Shown here piece after piece: positions 29,851 to 35,732 of a DNA stretch of 64,000 nucleotides; position 1 is the first letter of the stretch, and the number at the start of each line of letters is the position of its first letter. The translations under genes and the position numbers were made by a program. Source of the stretch: Bradyrhizobium lablabi (GTDB taxonomy: Bacteria; Pseudomonadota; Alphaproteobacteria; Rhizobiales; Xanthobacteraceae). Below the pieces are notes generated by a model. It had not been told where the DNA came from, did no database searches, and was given only the letters and a program-made list of their open reading frames with translations. The stretch covers positions 24,353-88,352 of the forward strand of contig NZ_LLYB01000134.1 in NCBI RefSeq assembly GCF_001440475.1, read 5' to 3'.

Positions 29851-31062
29851 TTACAGGGCTTCAGCCACAGGGGCGCCCGGCCGGGCCCTCGCCTGCAGGC
29901 GGGACACCGCCTCGGCCAGCGGAACGTCGGCCTGTGACCCGTCGCGCTCGCGCAAGGTCACCCGGCCTTTCCTCATCTCGCGCCCGCCGACGATAGCCAT
30001 CACCGGCACCGCCATTTCATGTGCCGCCACGATGCGCCGCGAAAGGGTATCGGCGCCGTCATAGGCGGCGGCCCTGATCCCGGCATTCTCGAACGCTGCC
30101 AGCACGTCCGCGCCGTATCCGGCCTGGTCTTTCGAGATCGGCGCGACCGCGACCTGGTCCGGCGACAGCCAGAACGGAAGCACGCCGCCATGGTGCTCGA
30201 GCAGGATCGCGATCATGCGGCCGAGCGATCCGAAGATGGCGTGGTGGATCATCAGGGGCCTGGCGCGGCTGCCGTCAGGGGCGACATAGGATGCCTCGAG
30301 CCGCTGCGGCAACACGCCGTCGAGCTGCACCGTGCCGCACTGCCAGAATCGTCCGAGCCGGTCGCGTAGCGCGAATTCCAGCTTCGGTCCGTAGAACGCG
30401 CCTTCGCCGGGATTGATTTGAGGCACGAGGCCGCATTGCCGCGCGGCATCGTCGAGCTTCGCTTCCGACCAGTCCCACGTCGCGTCGTCGCCGGCGCGCA
30501 CCGCCGGACGCGTCGCCAGCGCCACCTCGTAGTCGGGAAAACCGAGCTCGCGGTAGACCTCGCCCAGCAGGGCGATGAAGCACGCGACCTCGGCCTCCAC
30601 ATCCTGCTCGCGGCAGAACACATGGGCGTCGTCCTGCTCGAAGGCGCGCGTCCGCATGATACCGTGGAGCGAGCCGGAAGGCTCATTGCGGTGGCAGGCA
30701 CCGAACTCGGCATAGCGGATGGGAAGCTCCCGCCACGAGCGCAGCCCCTTGTTGAAGATCTGCACGTGGCACGGGCACGACATCGGTTTCAGCGCCATTG
30801 CCAGTTCGCCGTCGTCGACCCGGAACATATGCTCGCTGAACTTGTCCCAGTGGCCGCTGCGGCCCCAGAACTCCTTTGGCAGCAGCTGCGGCGTCCGGAC
30901 CTCGGCATAGCCGGCTCGGCGCATTTTGCGCCGCAGATAGTCCTCCAGCAGCCGGTAGACGGCGTAGCCGCGCGGATGCCAGAACACCATGCCCGGCGCA
31001 TCTTCCTGAAGGTGCCAGAGTTTGAGTTGTACGCCGAGATTTCTGTGGTCGAGATCGTCCAT
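29851..31062 (-). CDS. Threonyl-tRNA synthetase paralogue without editing domain
   Basis: The 403-residue protein starts right at the class II catalytic core (DHRNLGVQLKLWHLQEDAPGM region), so the TGS and N2 editing domains of normal ThrRS (about 640 aa) are missing. The zinc ligands of the E. coli enzyme correspond to C96 in KPMSCPCH, H147 in EQDDAHVF and H273 in MIHHAIFGS; all are present. Motif 2 (RYAEFGACHRNEPSG) and motif 3 (GSLGRMIAILLEHHGG) are intact, and the anticodon-binding domain follows with VPVMAIVGGREM. It should charge tRNA-Thr but cannot clear Ser-tRNA-Thr itself. A Thr-rich leader ORF and terminator lie directly upstream. A housekeeping thrS presumably exists elsewhere. Confidence 0.9.
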   Translation of the reverse strand: MDDLDHRNLGVQLKLWHLQEDAPGMVFWHPRGYAVYRLLEDYLRRKMRRAGYAEVRTPQLLPKEFWGRSGHWDKFSEHMFRVDDGELAMALKPMSCPCHVQIFNKGLRSWRELPIRYAEFGACHRNEPSGSLHGIMRTRAFEQDDAHVFCREQDVEAEVACFIALLGEVYRELGFPDYEVALATRPAVRAGDDATWDWSEAKLDDAARQCGLVPQINPGEGAFYGPKLEFALRDRLGRFWQCGTVQLDGVLPQRLEASYVAPDGSRARPLMIHHAIFGSLGRMIAILLEHHGGVLPFWLSPDQVAVAPISKDQAGYGADVLAAFENAGIRAAAYDGADTLSRRIVAAHEMAVPVMAIVGGREMRKGRVTLRERDGSQADVPLAEAVSRLQARARPGAPVAEAL

Positions 31063-31105
31063 GGCTTAAGTTCCTTGTGATGGGAAAAAGCGCGGACGGG
31101 GACTG

Positions 31106-31153
31106 TCAAAAACCAGAAAAGGCCCCGTCCGTCGCCGGCGGGGCCTTTTCTGG
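31106..31153 (-). terminator. Attenuator terminator upstream of the ThrRS paralogue
   Basis: On the minus strand CCAGAAAAGGCCCCG pairs perfectly with CGGGGCCTTTTCTGG (15 bp, 11-base loop), followed by TTTTT. It lies 17 bases after the leader ORF stop and about 45 bases before the synthetase ATG, inside the untranslated leader. Such a position is expected for an attenuator. A CGGCGG segment in the leader ORF (31196-31201) could pair with CCGCCG in the ascending arm (31136-31141) and prevent the terminator from forming. Confidence 0.9.
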
Positions 31154-31170
31154 GTGAAGTACGCTTGTCT

Positions 31171-31248
31171 CTAGCGCGCGCAACCAGCAGGCGATCCGCC
31201 GTAAGCGGTCGCGGTGGTGGTCAATGCGGCTGAGCGAAGCTTGTTCAT
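31171..31248 (-). CDS. Threonine-rich leader peptide, 25 aa (attenuation)
   Basis: An ATG at 31246-31248 opens 25 codons ending in TAG at 31171-31173. Codons 10, 11, 12 and 14 are all ACC (Thr), within the stretch LTTTATAY. A hairpin over these codons (31191-31212: GCGACCGC with GCGGATCGC, one bulged A) resembles a pause hairpin. The strong terminator at 31106-31153 follows, then the threonyl-tRNA synthetase paralogue. This is the layout of ribosome-dependent attenuation: stalling at Thr codons when Thr-tRNA is scarce would favour read-through. There is no Shine-Dalgarno sequence, consistent with leaderless translation. Confidence 0.82.
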   Translation of the reverse strand: MNKLRSAALTTTATAYGGSPAGCAR

Positions 31249-31252
31249 GCGC

Positions 31253-31283
31253 TGTATATGGCGGCAAAACGCTCAAGCGTCAA
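31253..31283 (-). promoter_or_regulatory. Candidate promoter of the Thr leader/ThrRS unit
   Basis: On the minus strand TTGACG (31278-31283) forms a good -35 box. A -10 region CATATA/TATACA lies at 31253-31260, 17 bases away for CATATA. Six bases further is position 31248, the A of the leader ATG. Transcription would thus start at or next to the AUG and give a leaderless mRNA. The -10 matches consensus only partly. Confidence 0.5.
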
Positions 31284-31703: not shown

Positions 31704-32087
31704 CTATCGCAGCGTCTTCAAGTACGCGATCAGATCGGCGCGTTCAGCCTTATCGGGAATGCCTCCGAACGGCATGCGCATGCCAACAATGTAGCTCTGC
31801 GGATCAGCAAGATAAGCATCCAGCGTCGACTCATCCCACACGATATTGGCTCGCACGATTGCTCGACTGTACCGAAAGTCGTCGAGTGCTCCCGACCTGC
31901 GCCCAATGACGCCAATCAGCGTCGGACCCTGGCCGGTGCTCTTGGGGTCGAGTTCGTGGCAGACAATGCACGCCTCATAGACGGCTTTGCCTCTGGTTGC
32001 GTCTTGTGCCCCCGCGCTCGGGACCGCCAAACCGAGCATGACAGCTATAGCCATGCAATGCCTGAACGTTGTCACTTTAGGCCTCAC
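31704..32087 (-). CDS. Periplasmic c-type cytochrome, dehydrogenase electron acceptor
   Basis: The 127-residue class I cytochrome c has a signal peptide (1-27, ending SAGAQ), one haem site CIVCH at 40-44, and a methionine ligand probably in VGMRMPFGG. The start is a GTG overlapping the stop of the flavoprotein gene (GTGA), so it is translationally coupled as the third gene of the operon. It most likely passes electrons from the GMC flavoprotein to the respiratory chain. It needs the Ccm system, which is also encoded in this window. Confidence 0.9.
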   Translation of the reverse strand: MRPKVTTFRHCMAIAVMLGLAVPSAGAQDATRGKAVYEACIVCHELDPKSTGQGPTLIGVIGRRSGALDDFRYSRAIVRANIVWDESTLDAYLADPQSYIVGMRMPFGGIPDKAERADLIAYLKTLR

Positions 32088-33841
32088 AGGAACCGCGGGC
32101 GCTCAAGATAGGATATGAGGTCATCAGCGAGCCGCAACCCCAGTGCGCCAACAGTCCCCGTTGGATTGTAACCCGAGTTCTGCGGGAACACTGAGGCGCC
32201 GGTGATGAAGAGATTCTGTGCGTCCCAGCTTTGCAGATGCGGACTCACAACGCTCGTCGCATGGTCGGCACCCATGATGGTGCCACCCGTGTTGTGTGTG
32301 CTTTGATAGATACGCGAATCAAAGGGTCCACGCCGCGGCGCGGGTGTCCCAACGATGGTAGCCCCTGTAGCCTTGGCGATATCATGGGCCTTCTGCGTCA
32401 CGAATAAAGACATCTTCAAGTCGTTCTCCGGGAAGTCGAACGCGATGCGCAGAAGCGGTCGGCCATAGGCGTCACGATAGTCTGGGTCTAGGTCCATGCA
32501 GTTGCCGCGGTGGGAGTAGCTCGTGCCGTGGCAGCTAATATTAAAGGACCGCAGATACCACTTTGCGTTTGCCGCCTTCCAGGCCGATCCCCACCGTGGG
32601 GTGCCCGGTGGAAGCGCGCGTGTCGTTATGGGCCGCCCGTTCGTGATCGTCGCATTAATGAATGCCCCGCCGAAGAAGCCAAGACCGGAGTGGTCGAAGT
32701 GGTCATTGTTGAACTCATCAATCACCATGCCGTAGGCACCGGCGCCCATGAAGGGATTTATGTAGCGGTCCTCAAAGAACACGCTCACGCCGGAAATCGT
32801 TTGATAGCAGTAGTTCTTGCCAACGACGCCCTTTCCTGTCCCGGGCTCGTAGGGCTCGCCGATACCGGAGAGCAGCAACAATCGTGTGTTCGACAAGACA
32901 TAGCTGCCAAGCACAATCGTGCTCGCAGGCTGCGCAAATTCTTCGCCTGTCTCGGTGTCGATGTAGGTGACCCCAGTCACGCGTCGGTCCGCCTTGTCAT
33001 AGTTGATGAGGAACGCCTCAGCGTGAGTGCGCAACTCGAAGTTTGGCTTGTCTGCAATAAATGGAAACAGCAATCGGTCTGGGCTTGCCTTCGCGTTGGC
33101 CTCGCATACGAAGCGCTCGCAGTGCCCGCAGTACTGGCACGCGCCGAGCTTCATGCCATCCGGGTTGGTATAGGCGCGGCTTGCATTTGCCGCGGGCATT
33201 GGGAATGGCTTGTAGCCAAGTTTCTCCGCAGCAGCTTTGAAGATGAGGCCGGCCTCAGACGGTTCTAGCGGCGGCAGCGAAAATTCCTCGGCGCGCCAGG
33301 GCTCGAATGGATTGCCGCCTTCCTGCTTTACCCCCTTGATGTTGCCGGCCTTGCCCGAGATGCCGAACAGTTTCTCAAACAGAGTGTAGTAGGGCTCGAG
33401 GTCTTCGTAGCGGATGCCCCAATCCTGCACAGTCATGTCGCTCGGAATCGCAGCCTTTCCGTACCGTTGTTCGAGATGTGAGCGCAGAATGTAGTCCGTC
33501 GTCTGAAAACGCCAAGTCTGGCCGTTCCAGTGCGAGGCCCCTCCGCCGACGCCGAAGCCTGGAAGGAACGATAGCAGGCGCCGCATCGGGAGAGCGGTCT
33601 CCTCTGGCGTGTGGCGCAGTGTGTAGGTCTCGACGTTCTCACGTTGCACGAGGCCGCGCTGGATTCCCCAGCGCAGCTCGTCGCGCTGCGAAGGGAGTTG
33701 GCTTTCTGATCCACTTCGCGGCGCACCACGCTCCAGAACAAGTACATCCCGACCGAGCGGCACCAACTTGCGCGCGATCAGACCGGCCGAGAGACCGCCG
33801 CCAACGATTACGACTTCGCGCTCTTTGAGGGTCGTTGCCAT
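32084..33841 (-). CDS. GMC oxidoreductase, large subunit of a periplasmic dehydrogenase
   Basis: The 585-residue FAD protein has the Rossmann motif VVIVGGGLSAG (10-20), the GMC segment GVGGGASHWNG, and the C-terminal active-site region STHNTGGT with SGYNPTGTVGALGLRLADDL. A cysteine cluster CQYCGHCERFVC lies near 231-242 and may hold an Fe-S centre as in FAD-glucose or fructose dehydrogenases (inference). It lacks a signal peptide; in this family the small Tat-type subunit carries it across the membrane. It follows the small subunit gene by 10 bases and overlaps the cytochrome gene. The substrate is probably a sugar, sugar acid or alcohol. Confidence 0.9.
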   Translation of the reverse strand: MATTLKEREVVIVGGGLSAGLIARKLVPLGRDVLVLERGAPRSGSESQLPSQRDELRWGIQRGLVQRENVETYTLRHTPEETALPMRRLLSFLPGFGVGGGASHWNGQTWRFQTTDYILRSHLEQRYGKAAIPSDMTVQDWGIRYEDLEPYYTLFEKLFGISGKAGNIKGVKQEGGNPFEPWRAEEFSLPPLEPSEAGLIFKAAAEKLGYKPFPMPAANASRAYTNPDGMKLGACQYCGHCERFVCEANAKASPDRLLFPFIADKPNFELRTHAEAFLINYDKADRRVTGVTYIDTETGEEFAQPASTIVLGSYVLSNTRLLLLSGIGEPYEPGTGKGVVGKNYCYQTISGVSVFFEDRYINPFMGAGAYGMVIDEFNNDHFDHSGLGFFGGAFINATITNGRPITTRALPPGTPRWGSAWKAANAKWYLRSFNISCHGTSYSHRGNCMDLDPDYRDAYGRPLLRIAFDFPENDLKMSLFVTQKAHDIAKATGATIVGTPAPRRGPFDSRIYQSTHNTGGTIMGADHATSVVSPHLQSWDAQNLFITGASVFPQNSGYNPTGTVGALGLRLADDLISYLERPRFL

Positions 33842-33851
33842 GACGCGCCCC

Positions 33852-34622
33852 CTAGCTAAAATCCTGGATCGATTGCGGGTTGGCAGAGCGCGGGTGCGCC
33901 TTGCCTCGAAACCGCACCACGTCTTGGTTGTAGACCGCCGGCAGACCGGGATAGCCGATCATCTTCCACGCCGCTTTGTCGCGATTTCCTCCATAAACTG
34001 GATCGGCGAATGCCCCCTGCACGAACAGAGGATATGCAAGCCCATTAAACCATGCTGCTAGATCCAGCGGTCCCTCTTTGACCTTTCCGCTGGCGAGCTC
34101 TTGCAGGAATTGCTCACGGTCGGCTGCCGCAAGCCGTTCGAAGCTCCGGCCAAATCGCTTTTGGCATGCCGTGGCGATCGCAGATGCGCCAGCTCGGTAA
34201 TATTGTGCCGGCGTCAGCGGAAGCTGGTAGCCATGCTGCGGCTTGCCCATTCGGAACGGGCCCTGCGCGTACAGCCGATCACCCTGCCCGAAAGCGCCTG
34301 CGAGCTGGCGATCGATAAAGGTGGCGATTCCGAGTTCCGTACCTGACGGCGACAGCTGATCCTTCGGCCACATGTGGTCAACGAGCGCTTCCGTGAAGGC
34401 AACTTCGTCCAGGCTGAGGAACTGGTGTCCCGTTGCTGCGCCGGGTGCAGCCGCAGACGAGGGTGCGGCGGCCGCAGGCGGTTGCGCCTGTGCAATCTGA
34501 GGCTTGGGTTCTGCGGCCTCGGCGCGGCTGGCTGCGCCAATCGTCGGCAGGACCACAGTTGCGATCCCTGCACTTTTGAGAATTGCTCGCCGGTCAATCG
34601 GCGGTAATGACTGCTCGGACAT
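33852..34622 (-). CDS. Gluconate 2-dehydrogenase subunit 3-like (small subunit)
   Basis: The 256-residue protein begins MSEQSLPPIDRRAILKSAG, a Tat-type signal (DRRAILK, a relaxed twin-arginine form) with a hydrophobic stretch ending ASRAEA. A Pro/Ala linker (about 40-65) and a Gluconate_2-dh3 domain follow (FLSLDEVAFTEALVDHMWP, GIATFIDRQLAG). It is the first gene of the operon: small subunit, flavoprotein, cytochrome c. In known three-component dehydrogenases this subunit is needed for maturation and export of the flavoprotein. Confidence 0.9.
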   Translation of the reverse strand: MSEQSLPPIDRRAILKSAGIATVVLPTIGAASRAEAAEPKPQIAQAQPPAAAAPSSAAAPGAATGHQFLSLDEVAFTEALVDHMWPKDQLSPSGTELGIATFIDRQLAGAFGQGDRLYAQGPFRMGKPQHGYQLPLTPAQYYRAGASAIATACQKRFGRSFERLAAADREQFLQELASGKVKEGPLDLAAWFNGLAYPLFVQGAFADPVYGGNRDKAAWKMIGYPGLPAVYNQDVVRFRGKAHPRSANPQSIQDFS

Positions 34623-34904: not shown

Positions 34905-35732
34905 CTAATGCTGACCGCAACGGCAGTTGTCATAGTCCACTGGATCATGGCTGTTGAAGATCGTCACGGCGTCACCGTGATTGGCCTTGAGCGCCCGCAA
35001 GCGTTCCTGGTTTTCGATCCGCATGGCGCGGTCCATGTCGCCGCGGCGCTGAAACAGGCCGAGCACCAATGGCACCCGCGGCGAAGCCTGCATCTGACCA
35101 TGGAAGAAATAGGCATCACCGGCGTGCAGCAGCCATTTGTCACCGCTCCGCACGGCGATGCCGCAATGACCGAGCGTATGGCCGTGTAGCGGGATCATCA
35201 GGACATCGGGCTCGCGGTCGCCAAGCGCGCGCACGCCCTTGAAGCCGAACCAGTCCTCACCGCCCTCCCCATAGAATGCCCATTGCGGACCATGCTTCCA
35301 CTGGTCGGTGATGTAACGCCCCTTCGGCGCAGGCACGGTGCGCGCCACGGCCATGTCGTGCTCGCGGCGGTGGACGTGCACCTTGGCGTTCGGGAAATCC
35401 GGAATGCCGCCGGCATGATCGCGGTCGAGATGGGTCAGTAACAGATGCCGCACGTCGTCGCGCGAATAGCCGAGCGCCTCCACTTGCCGCACGGCGGTCT
35501 CGGCCGGGTCGAGCCGCGGCGTGGTCTGCCGGACCCATTTCGGTCCGAGCCGCGGCGGGTTGGCGATATCGTCGAGGCCGATACCGGTATCGACCAGCGC
35601 CAGTCCGTCATTGGTCTCAATCAGCAGGCAGTGACAGACCATGCGGGCGTGCTGAAAAATGCTGCCGGTGCCGTTCACCAGACGCCGGCCGATCGGGCAC
35701 ATCGTGCCGGTGTTGAGATGATGGACGCGCAT
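34905..35732 (-). CDS. MBL-fold hydrolase, N-acyl-homoserine lactonase-like
   Basis: The 275-residue metallo-beta-lactamase-fold protein has the first metal motif as THLDRDH (H101, D103, D105, H106). The second histidine of the usual HxHxDH is therefore an aspartate. Further ligands are HGHTLGH and HAGDAYFF. The layout (INxG-type start, DTGIG, long insertion) resembles AHL lactonases and related quorum-quenching enzymes; the real substrate could be another lactone. It is divergent from a LysR regulator 92 bases away, which probably controls it. Confidence 0.85.
   Translation of the reverse strand: MRVHHLNTGTMCPIGRRLVNGTGSIFQHARMVCHCLLIETNDGLALVDTGIGLDDIANPPRLGPKWVRQTTPRLDPAETAVRQVEALGYSRDDVRHLLLTHLDRDHAGGIPDFPNAKVHVHRREHDMAVARTVPAPKGRYITDQWKHGPQWAFYGEGGEDWFGFKGVRALGDREPDVLMIPLHGHTLGHCGIAVRSGDKWLLHAGDAYFFHGQMQASPRVPLVLGLFQRRGDMDRAMRIENQERLRALKANHGDAVTIFNSHDPVDYDNCRCGQH

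Follow-up and report, generated by a model that had tools for sequence, protein, structure and literature searches.

A candidate threonine attenuator upstream of an auxiliary threonyl-tRNA synthetase gene in Bradyrhizobium lablabi and its relatives

A gene for a 403-aa threonyl-tRNA synthetase (ThrRS) paralogue in Bradyrhizobium lablabi appears to be controlled by a ribosome-mediated transcription attenuator that senses threonyl-tRNA; judged from sequence evolution, we put the probability of this reading at about 0.87. The element lies on the minus strand of the window, the whole stretch of 64,000 nucleotides that was analysed. The same switch precedes relatives of the gene, which makes it most likely that it turns a spare enzyme on when charged threonine (Thr) tRNA is short. 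Comparison of sequences supports the Thr frame of the leader, the terminator core, a covarying antiterminator, the position of the promoter, a single clade of paralogues and the co-occurrence of the leader with the gene; from there we infer ribosome stalling, termination efficiency, induction by low Thr-tRNA and the role of the enzyme.

Reading 5' to 3' along the minus strand, the locus begins with a predicted -35 box TTGACG (31278..31283, sequence read and promoter-pair scan) and, after a 17-nt spacer, a -10 box CATATA (31255..31260) that ends 6 nt upstream of the ATG (31248) of a leader ORF. This ORF (31171..31248), MNKLRSAALTTTATAYGGSPAGCAR, has 25 codons and stops with TAG at 31171. Direct reading of the strand bears out what the first-pass annotation had said of it, namely that ACC (Thr) occupies codons 10, 11 and 12 (31221-31213) and 14 (31209-31207), the regulatory Thr codons of the proposal (31207..31221). 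The same annotation had placed a hairpin over these codons. The hairpin is present at 31191..31212 (the putative 1:2 protector hairpin, GCGACCGC/GCGGATCGC, from the predicted fold and swap tests), but it spans codons 13-19, so that only the fourth Thr codon lies inside it. In an alternative outer form of this hairpin GCGACC is predicted to pair with GGTTGC at 31186-31181.

The 5' strand of the putative antiterminator, region 2 (31173..31201, from stalled-state folds and covariation), is made up of CGGCGG (31201-31196), GCCT, CTGG, TG and GCGCT and reaches the leader stop codon. Its 3' strand, region 3 (31136..31165), is made up of AGCGT, CA, CCAG, AGGC and CCGCCG (31141-31136) and overlaps the 5' arm of the terminator. 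A pairing of CGGCGG with CCGCCG had been suggested as a possible antiterminator, and it proves to be the outer stem of a longer predicted one. The Rho-independent terminator (31108..31153) is where it had been placed, with a 15-bp stem of CCAGAAAAGGCCCCG (31153-31139) paired with CGGGGCCTTTTCTGG (31127-31113) and the U-run TTTTT (31112-31108). Beyond it come region 5, CCCCGTCCG (31093..31101), whose 9 nt are complementary to the terminator segment CGGACGGGG (31131-31123), then a Shine-Dalgarno (SD)-like AAGGAA (31071..31076, sequence read) and, as had been said, the synthetase gene (29851..31062, ATG at 31062), encoding a class II catalytic core (PF00587) and an anticodon-binding domain (PF03129). 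The folding energy of the 198-nt leader is 5.5 standard deviations below that of dinucleotide shuffles.

On the far side of the attenuator, genes for a cytochrome c, a GMC oxidoreductase and gluconate 2-dehydrogenase subunit 3 (31704-34622, also on the minus strand) separate it from a lactonase-like gene (34905-35732). In B. jicamae (L036) the lactonase-like gene is immediately upstream of the attenuator, and the three-gene block therefore looks inserted or lost.

The proposed switch would work as follows. Transcription would begin at or beside the leader ATG. With Thr-tRNA plentiful, the ribosome would run on to the stop codon in the apex of the antiterminator and mask region 2; region 3 would then pair with region 4 to give the terminator, and transcription would end before the gene. 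With Thr-tRNA short, the ribosome would stall on the Thr run and cover region 1, and regions 2 and 3 would pair as the antiterminator (CGGCGG:CCGCCG, CTGG:CCAG and apical stems), blocking the terminator so that the 403-aa ThrRS is made. The second ThrRS would thus be called up when the housekeeping ThrRS fails to keep tRNA-Thr charged, through starvation or inhibition.

Is the Thr-rich frame kept in other lineages? The comparison set consisted of 29 non-redundant leaders from 17 lineages, with paralogues down to 55% protein identity in other Alphaproteobacteria and in Burkholderiaceae. A Thr-rich leader ORF was found in all 29, with 3-10 Thr codons drawn from ACC, ACG, ACT and ACA (for example MSALFVTTTTTTTTTANGGPGGGCTS) and a distance of 21-36 nt from leader stop to terminator core. 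Candidate ORFs needed at least two Thr codons and had to end upstream of the terminator, and where several ATGs were possible, preference went to one lying 5-11 nt from a promoter; because of these requirements on Thr content and position the 29/29 count is not blind, and the fair comparisons are counts made by one rule against housekeeping genes and shuffles. Both gene groups were screened by a single fixed rule, which asked for a small Thr-rich ORF no more than 330 nt upstream. The ORF was found before 29/29 paralogues versus 3/66 housekeeping thrS genes and 4/30 alphaproteobacterial housekeeping thrS genes, and the combination of ORF, hairpin and TTTT before 20/29 versus 0/66 and 0/30. The 66 housekeeping loci (from 89, of which 18 lacked the core motif and 5 were dropped by length and flank filters) are mostly from Betaproteobacteria and lower in G+C (mean 49%), which is why 30 of 33 alphaproteobacterial loci, together with shuffles, served as a second control. 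Dinucleotide-shuffled upstreams of the 29 paralogues yielded a Thr-rich small ORF in 82 of 1160 cases and the full combination in 3.

Closer to the window, each of the 59 Bradyrhizobium-type and allied leaders that were entered has this layout (57 by rule, plus L171 and L174, which the rule missed and which were read separately; some of the 59 represent the same genome in two collections). A set of 23 distinct leader DNAs of the Bradyrhizobium type has Thr at codons 10 and 12 throughout, with synonymous variation (ACC/ACG/ACT), and at codon 11 in 21; codon 14 is invariant, and codon 5 varies over five amino acids. One leader, recorded as B. murdochi (L037), has lost two Thr codons and kept only two while its gene is intact, which argues against a strict need for the full Thr run. 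In L223 and L242-L245 the leaders (MQSIILTVATIKVTAVGG... type) contain Ile, Leu and Val codons besides those for Thr and are reminiscent of enteric thrL; these leaders may sense several amino acids.

The predicted promoter keeps its place as well. The gap between the end of the best -35/-10 pair (boxes 17 or 18 nt apart) and the leader ATG downstream of it measures 5-10 nt in 28/29 leaders, the exception being L055, where the -10 box ends 4 nt from the ATG and the -35 is poor. TTGAC[AGC] is the best -35 in 26/29. Shuffled upstreams reached the promoter score in 6/100 cases for the window and in 0/100 for 15 of the 29 leaders. The predicted transcription start thus coincides with the leader ATG or lies no more than a few bases from it. 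A predicted promoter so near the ATG implies a leaderless message, suggesting that the leader would be translated from an mRNA with no untranslated region ahead of it. The trpL transcript of S. meliloti begins at its ATG (according to an excerpt of PMC7298713), and most leaders of S. lividans, thrL included, are transcribed leaderless (excerpt of PMC8079986).

The terminator core is present in 33/33 loci compared, including all 29 non-redundant leaders; by a strict TTTT criterion the T-run is intact in 20/29 and interrupted in 9/29 homologues, the window having TTTTT. The untranslated window leader is predicted to fold with the terminator formed. In the stall model, the first Thr codon of the run is in the A site and the 3' arm of the terminator is not yet made; under these conditions at least 5 of the last 13 bases of region 3 enter a long hairpin with region 2 in 29/29 leaders. 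When the stall is moved to the last Thr codon, region 3 is engaged (at least 5 of its last 9 nt) in only 6/29, so that the early codons should matter most. The predicted antiterminator has CGGCGG:CCGCCG as its outer stem, inner stems around CTGG:CCAG and the leader stop codon in its apical part.

Covariation was examined in two alignments. In the first (A4), 28 leaders were aligned by covariance model (28/28 found at E<=6.3e-6), three antisense matches and five loci being excluded; 90.7% of antiterminator cells are paired and 13 of the 21 pairs have changed on both sides. Cells changed on both sides number 47 versus 15.9 in shuffles (0/500 as high) and at most 21 with slid partners, in an alignment that, being fitted to the antiterminator model, favours that structure. 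The second covers 27 distinct closer leaders, aligned with MAFFT and not fitted to the model; of its antiterminator cells 94.4% pair versus 33-51% when slid, and only two changes affect both sides (22/500 shuffles as high). One of the two lies in the outer stem of L055, with U-A in place of the C-G of other leaders, and the base change that retains this antiterminator pair breaks a terminator pair. The terminator itself has no both-side change in the alignment, as expected of an arm obliged to pair with two partners. For the 1:2 hairpin, 94.4% of cells are paired in alignment A2, and one pair has both-side changes.

An alignment-free swap test set each leader's own halves against halves of other lineages (17 lineages). 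In a first partition the antiterminator as a whole scored z -4.0 and its inner part -2.1; the terminator scored -4.2 and the 1:2 hairpin -2.8. In a second partition the scores were -1.8 for 2:3, -4.3 for 3:4 and -1.9 for 1:2, and 14 clearly non-partner pairs gave -2.3 to +0.9. Region 2 against the stop-to-terminator spacer, where the 3' strand of the inner antiterminator lies, scored +2.05, against the model. The swap test being mixed for the inner stem, the case for that stem rests on the stalled-state folds and the fitted covariation. At the level of sequence, then, the locus has a translatable leader ORF with a run of cognate codons, an intrinsic terminator between ORF and gene, and a predicted antiterminator mutually exclusive with that terminator, the region 2:spacer swap being contrary on this last point.

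Aligning related upstream regions had been proposed as the check on the first-pass annotation. In the homologous leaders the frame is still rich in Thr, the terminator core is kept, and so is the antiterminator pairing, with compensatory changes; the comparison supports a reading as ribosome-dependent attenuation. None of the housekeeping thrS genes examined has this combination. An Rfam scan of the window gave no family at gathering score, and seven loci scanned with Rfam gave no T-box row at E<=0.5. Thr_leader (RF00506) scored 26.6 bits on the window copy (whole model) and 28.0 on L246, below its gathering threshold of 55.

The gene behind the leader had been called a ThrRS paralogue, correctly: its product matches TIGR00418 (thrS) above cut-off, only from model position 172 on, and an ordinary ThrRS is encoded in a 674-aa frame on another contig of the same genome. 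The paralogue has no N-terminal TGS/editing (proofreading) region and is not a full-length bacterial ThrRS; the 36 longer paralogues have frames of 393-425 aa. With residues numbered as in E. coli (by offset from the alignment), the Zn ligands Cys334, His385 and His511 and the catalytic Arg363, Gln381 and Asp383 are kept in 36/37 paralogues, and we take the exception to be L059, a truncated frame of 134 aa. Since active-site and Zn residues are kept, the 403-aa enzyme is probably an active second ThrRS without a proofreading domain of its own. Only a few positions differ in a near-fixed way from the housekeeping cores (Ser333, His512, Leu526, Leu578, Arg580). In a quick tree of 30 + 30 rows, which omits seven paralogues (six close copies and one truncated frame) and 50 of the 80 housekeeping cores, the paralogues form one clade opposite the housekeeping cores (SH-aLRT 100). 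No common neighbour gene was noticed by eye among the predicted proteins of 15 loci. A single clade with no shared neighbours noticed fits a promoter-leader-gene unit that moves as a whole.

What would such a unit be for? It might above all be a resistance device: by lowering Thr-tRNA, borrelidin or obafluorin would stall the ribosome on the leader and so induce an insensitive ThrRS. This proposal concerns the purpose of the cassette and can be compatible with the attenuator explanation; we hold it to be unlikely, yet the most credible of the alternatives. The logic would be that of the auxiliary TrpRS1 of S. coelicolor with indolmycin (cited in PMC4787780), the paralogue is patchily distributed, and position 488 is Val in the 36 full-length paralogues versus Asn in 65/80 housekeeping cores. 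The resistance of ObaO to obafluorin is ascribed to a change of Gly463 to Ser (excerpt of PMC11252418), and His309 and Leu489 are positions of borrelidin resistance (excerpt of PMC4389257). These changes are absent from the 36 full-length paralogues, all of which keep Gly463, His309 and Tyr462, while 35 keep Leu489 and one has Met; nor were biosynthetic neighbours noticed by eye among the predicted proteins of the 15 loci.

Region 5, which reads CCCCGTCCG in the window, is conserved and complementary to the terminator 3' arm, and in several divergent homologues it can pair with the synthetase SD instead (swap z -4.1 for 5:SD, -2.6 for 4:5). Such pairing, open to many homologues, would suit a leader that works mainly on translation, with stalling exposing the start site of the synthetase and the hairpin no more than a weak terminator. 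Freeing region 4 raises predicted SD accessibility in 10/29 leaders and lowers it in one, and the interrupted U-run of 9/29 points the same way. In the window, however, predicted SD accessibility stays at 0.36 when region 4 is freed (0.36 to 0.36), masking of the start site versus shuffled region 5 gives z -0.08 (mean over 17 groups -0.75; the gene start of L055 was set by hand for both calculations), and the terminator has a 15-bp stem followed by five U. With SD accessibility unchanged and masking at chance level, a translational gate through region 5 is not supported for the window, and we consider mainly translational control improbable. In some homologues the modelled pairings make a link between region 5 and translation initiation possible.

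E. coli thrS is autoregulated by ThrRS binding to its own leader, and operator binding in E. coli goes through the N-terminal region of the enzyme. If the present synthetase likewise bound its own leader, the leader ORF would be incidental. For this it can be said that E. coli ThrRS is mentioned as regulating its own expression (in an excerpt of PMC2965389). We judge it very improbable here, given that the Thr codons are conserved with synonymous changes, that the Thr run persists in diverged leader RNAs and that the N-terminal region is missing from the paralogue.

The idea that ORF and terminator are unrelated remnants of an intergenic region can be set aside almost entirely: a second exact copy of the terminator core behind a 23-codon ORF and the Thr-rich ORF of 82/1160 shuffles speak for it, but the ORF in 29/29 paralogues, and ORF, hairpin and TTTT in 20/29 versus 3/1160 shuffles and 0/30 housekeeping genes, speak against it. 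That copy came from a search of the B. lablabi genome for the terminator core (up to 3 mismatches), which gave two places. The second place (L116/L118) has the exact core CCCCGCCGGCGACGGACGGGG at L118:1141-1200 (G000:C55:21663-21683) and was set aside because its 23-codon ORF, MRGFNRTAPTMCASLILESTLSG, has no Thr run.

The attenuator and the synthetase gene occur together in scattered genomes. Among the matches listed for 198 genomes of the family, six genomes, the window's own included, have a paralogue at >90% identity, and the other family rows are mostly full-length ThrRS at 43-49% identity. R1, a covariance model of the leader, scores at least 114 bits in 41/265 genomes of the genus, the next match among those listed scoring 45 bits; the paralogue is found at E<=1e-150 in 39/265, and 38 genomes have both. 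In the three leader-only genomes the start of a paralogue lies downstream, in frames of 265, 269 and 100 aa, and we interpret these as decay or draft error. G641, the only genome in which the paralogue occurs with no strong R1 match, has a divergent Thr leader of its own. A truncated-type paralogue at 55-70% identity occurs in at least 12 of 385 genomes of the class, the window's own not counted (L215-L226), and 398 genomes of the phylum add at least three in one family outside the class and at least one from the order (L234-L237). The family outside the class, which we infer to be Burkholderiaceae, has the paralogue in 3/41 genomes searched. Megaplasmids of Caballeronia and Burkholderia arboris carry it at places where the gene table lists no gene. 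More distant paralogues may exist; the phage collection gave only matches below 60% identity.

Several loci hold shortened frames behind a matching leader. In G669, G733, G642, G747 and G807 (L209-L213) the paralogue frames are 265, 269, 100, 134 and 310 aa and R1 scores 122-167 bits; such loci could have decayed recently, could reflect errors in the drafts, or could point to a separate function of the leader RNA or peptide. G631 and G762 have only partial protein matches to the paralogue.

Weaker R1 matches (22-45 bits) seem not to be this element. Twelve such loci were inspected: in seven a small ORF is preceded by another conserved leader, and in the remaining five we recognised no Thr leader. 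In Bradyrhizobium, L124-L128, L132 and L135 (e.g. G196:C6:68310-68449) have a leader of about 25 codons, such as MIKCSRKVNFNHMTRFGWAVEGVVR, without a Thr run, followed by nearly the same terminator core and then a small gene (DUF1127 in L125, the one scanned). The element of L125 is downstream of an ORF that by eye resembles MurJ, and R1 matches of similar score occur in many further genomes of the genus.

How does the element compare with known systems? The attenuator of the E. coli thr operon (RF00506) is alike in its Thr-rich leader peptide, hairpin and terminator with U-run, but it controls thrABC, whereas the window's element would control a synthetase and has its predicted promoter placed for a leaderless mRNA. 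Attenuators before synthetase genes have been described in Streptomyces. Vecchione and Sello reportedly showed in 2010 that the auxiliary TrpRS1 of S. coelicolor is under an attenuator and has a role in indolmycin resistance. Classical attenuators also lie upstream of Streptomyces trpS and leuS, and pheST is cited too (excerpt of PMC1262725). The Streptomyces attenuators resemble the window's element in having a leader-peptide attenuator before a synthetase gene, and TrpRS1 in being a second, inducible enzyme; they differ in using Trp or Leu codons, in belonging to Actinobacteria, in the genes controlled and, for TrpRS1, in the stated antibiotic-resistance role. In S. lividans a leaderless thrL with two Thr codons and no clear terminator precedes thrS (excerpt of PMC8079986). 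That leader peptide is likewise leaderless and Thr-containing, but its host is an actinobacterium and its gene is described there simply as threonine-tRNA ligase.

T-box elements read tRNA directly, without a leader peptide. One of them governs B. subtilis thrZ, a second ThrRS gene under tRNA-charging-dependent antitermination (excerpt of PMC2494555), which is alike in placing a second ThrRS under charging-dependent control and unlike in its T-box and in belonging to Firmicutes. The trpL/rnTrpL system of S. meliloti is an alphaproteobacterial attenuator whose transcript starts at the leader ATG; unlike the present element it concerns Trp and a biosynthetic operon, and the liberated RNA and peptide act in trans (excerpt of PMC7298713). 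Anabaena has a second ThrRS, T2, with impaired editing, which is induced by stress and for which the first ThrRS proofreads in trans (excerpt of PMC4787780); T2 is under Zur and zinc control and has kept its editing domain, whereas the window's paralogue has none.

The open-licence literature yielded no description of this element in Proteobacteria, and none of a leader-peptide attenuator paired with a ThrRS lacking the editing region. The first-pass annotation knew of no description of the arrangement, which in that literature holds for this element in Proteobacteria and not for attenuated synthetase genes as such, which are already known; what appears new here is a candidate Thr attenuator without an Rfam listing before a proofreading-less spare ThrRS. 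The leader alignment could seed a new RNA family entry.

More speculatively, and with the odds clearly against the scheme in its entirety, promoter, leaderless Thr leader, attenuator and proofreading-less ThrRS might form a self-contained, horizontally travelling emergency-synthetase cassette that comes on exactly when correct Thr charging fails. Translation would then be sustained at the cost of Ser-for-Thr misreading, or with the housekeeping ThrRS supplying proofreading in trans. A further lock, formed in some lineages by the terminator 3' arm, region 5 and SD, would keep leaky read-through untranslatable, so that transcription and translation would open together.

If the attenuator reading is true, a leader-peptide switch of the thr/trp type would have been recruited to an auxiliary tRNA synthetase in Proteobacteria, and switch and synthetase would have spread as one transferable unit through Alphaproteobacteria and Burkholderiaceae. 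It would also raise a question about the cells that carry them: are Thr-to-Ser errors accepted when charged tRNA-Thr is exhausted, or does the old enzyme proofread for the new?
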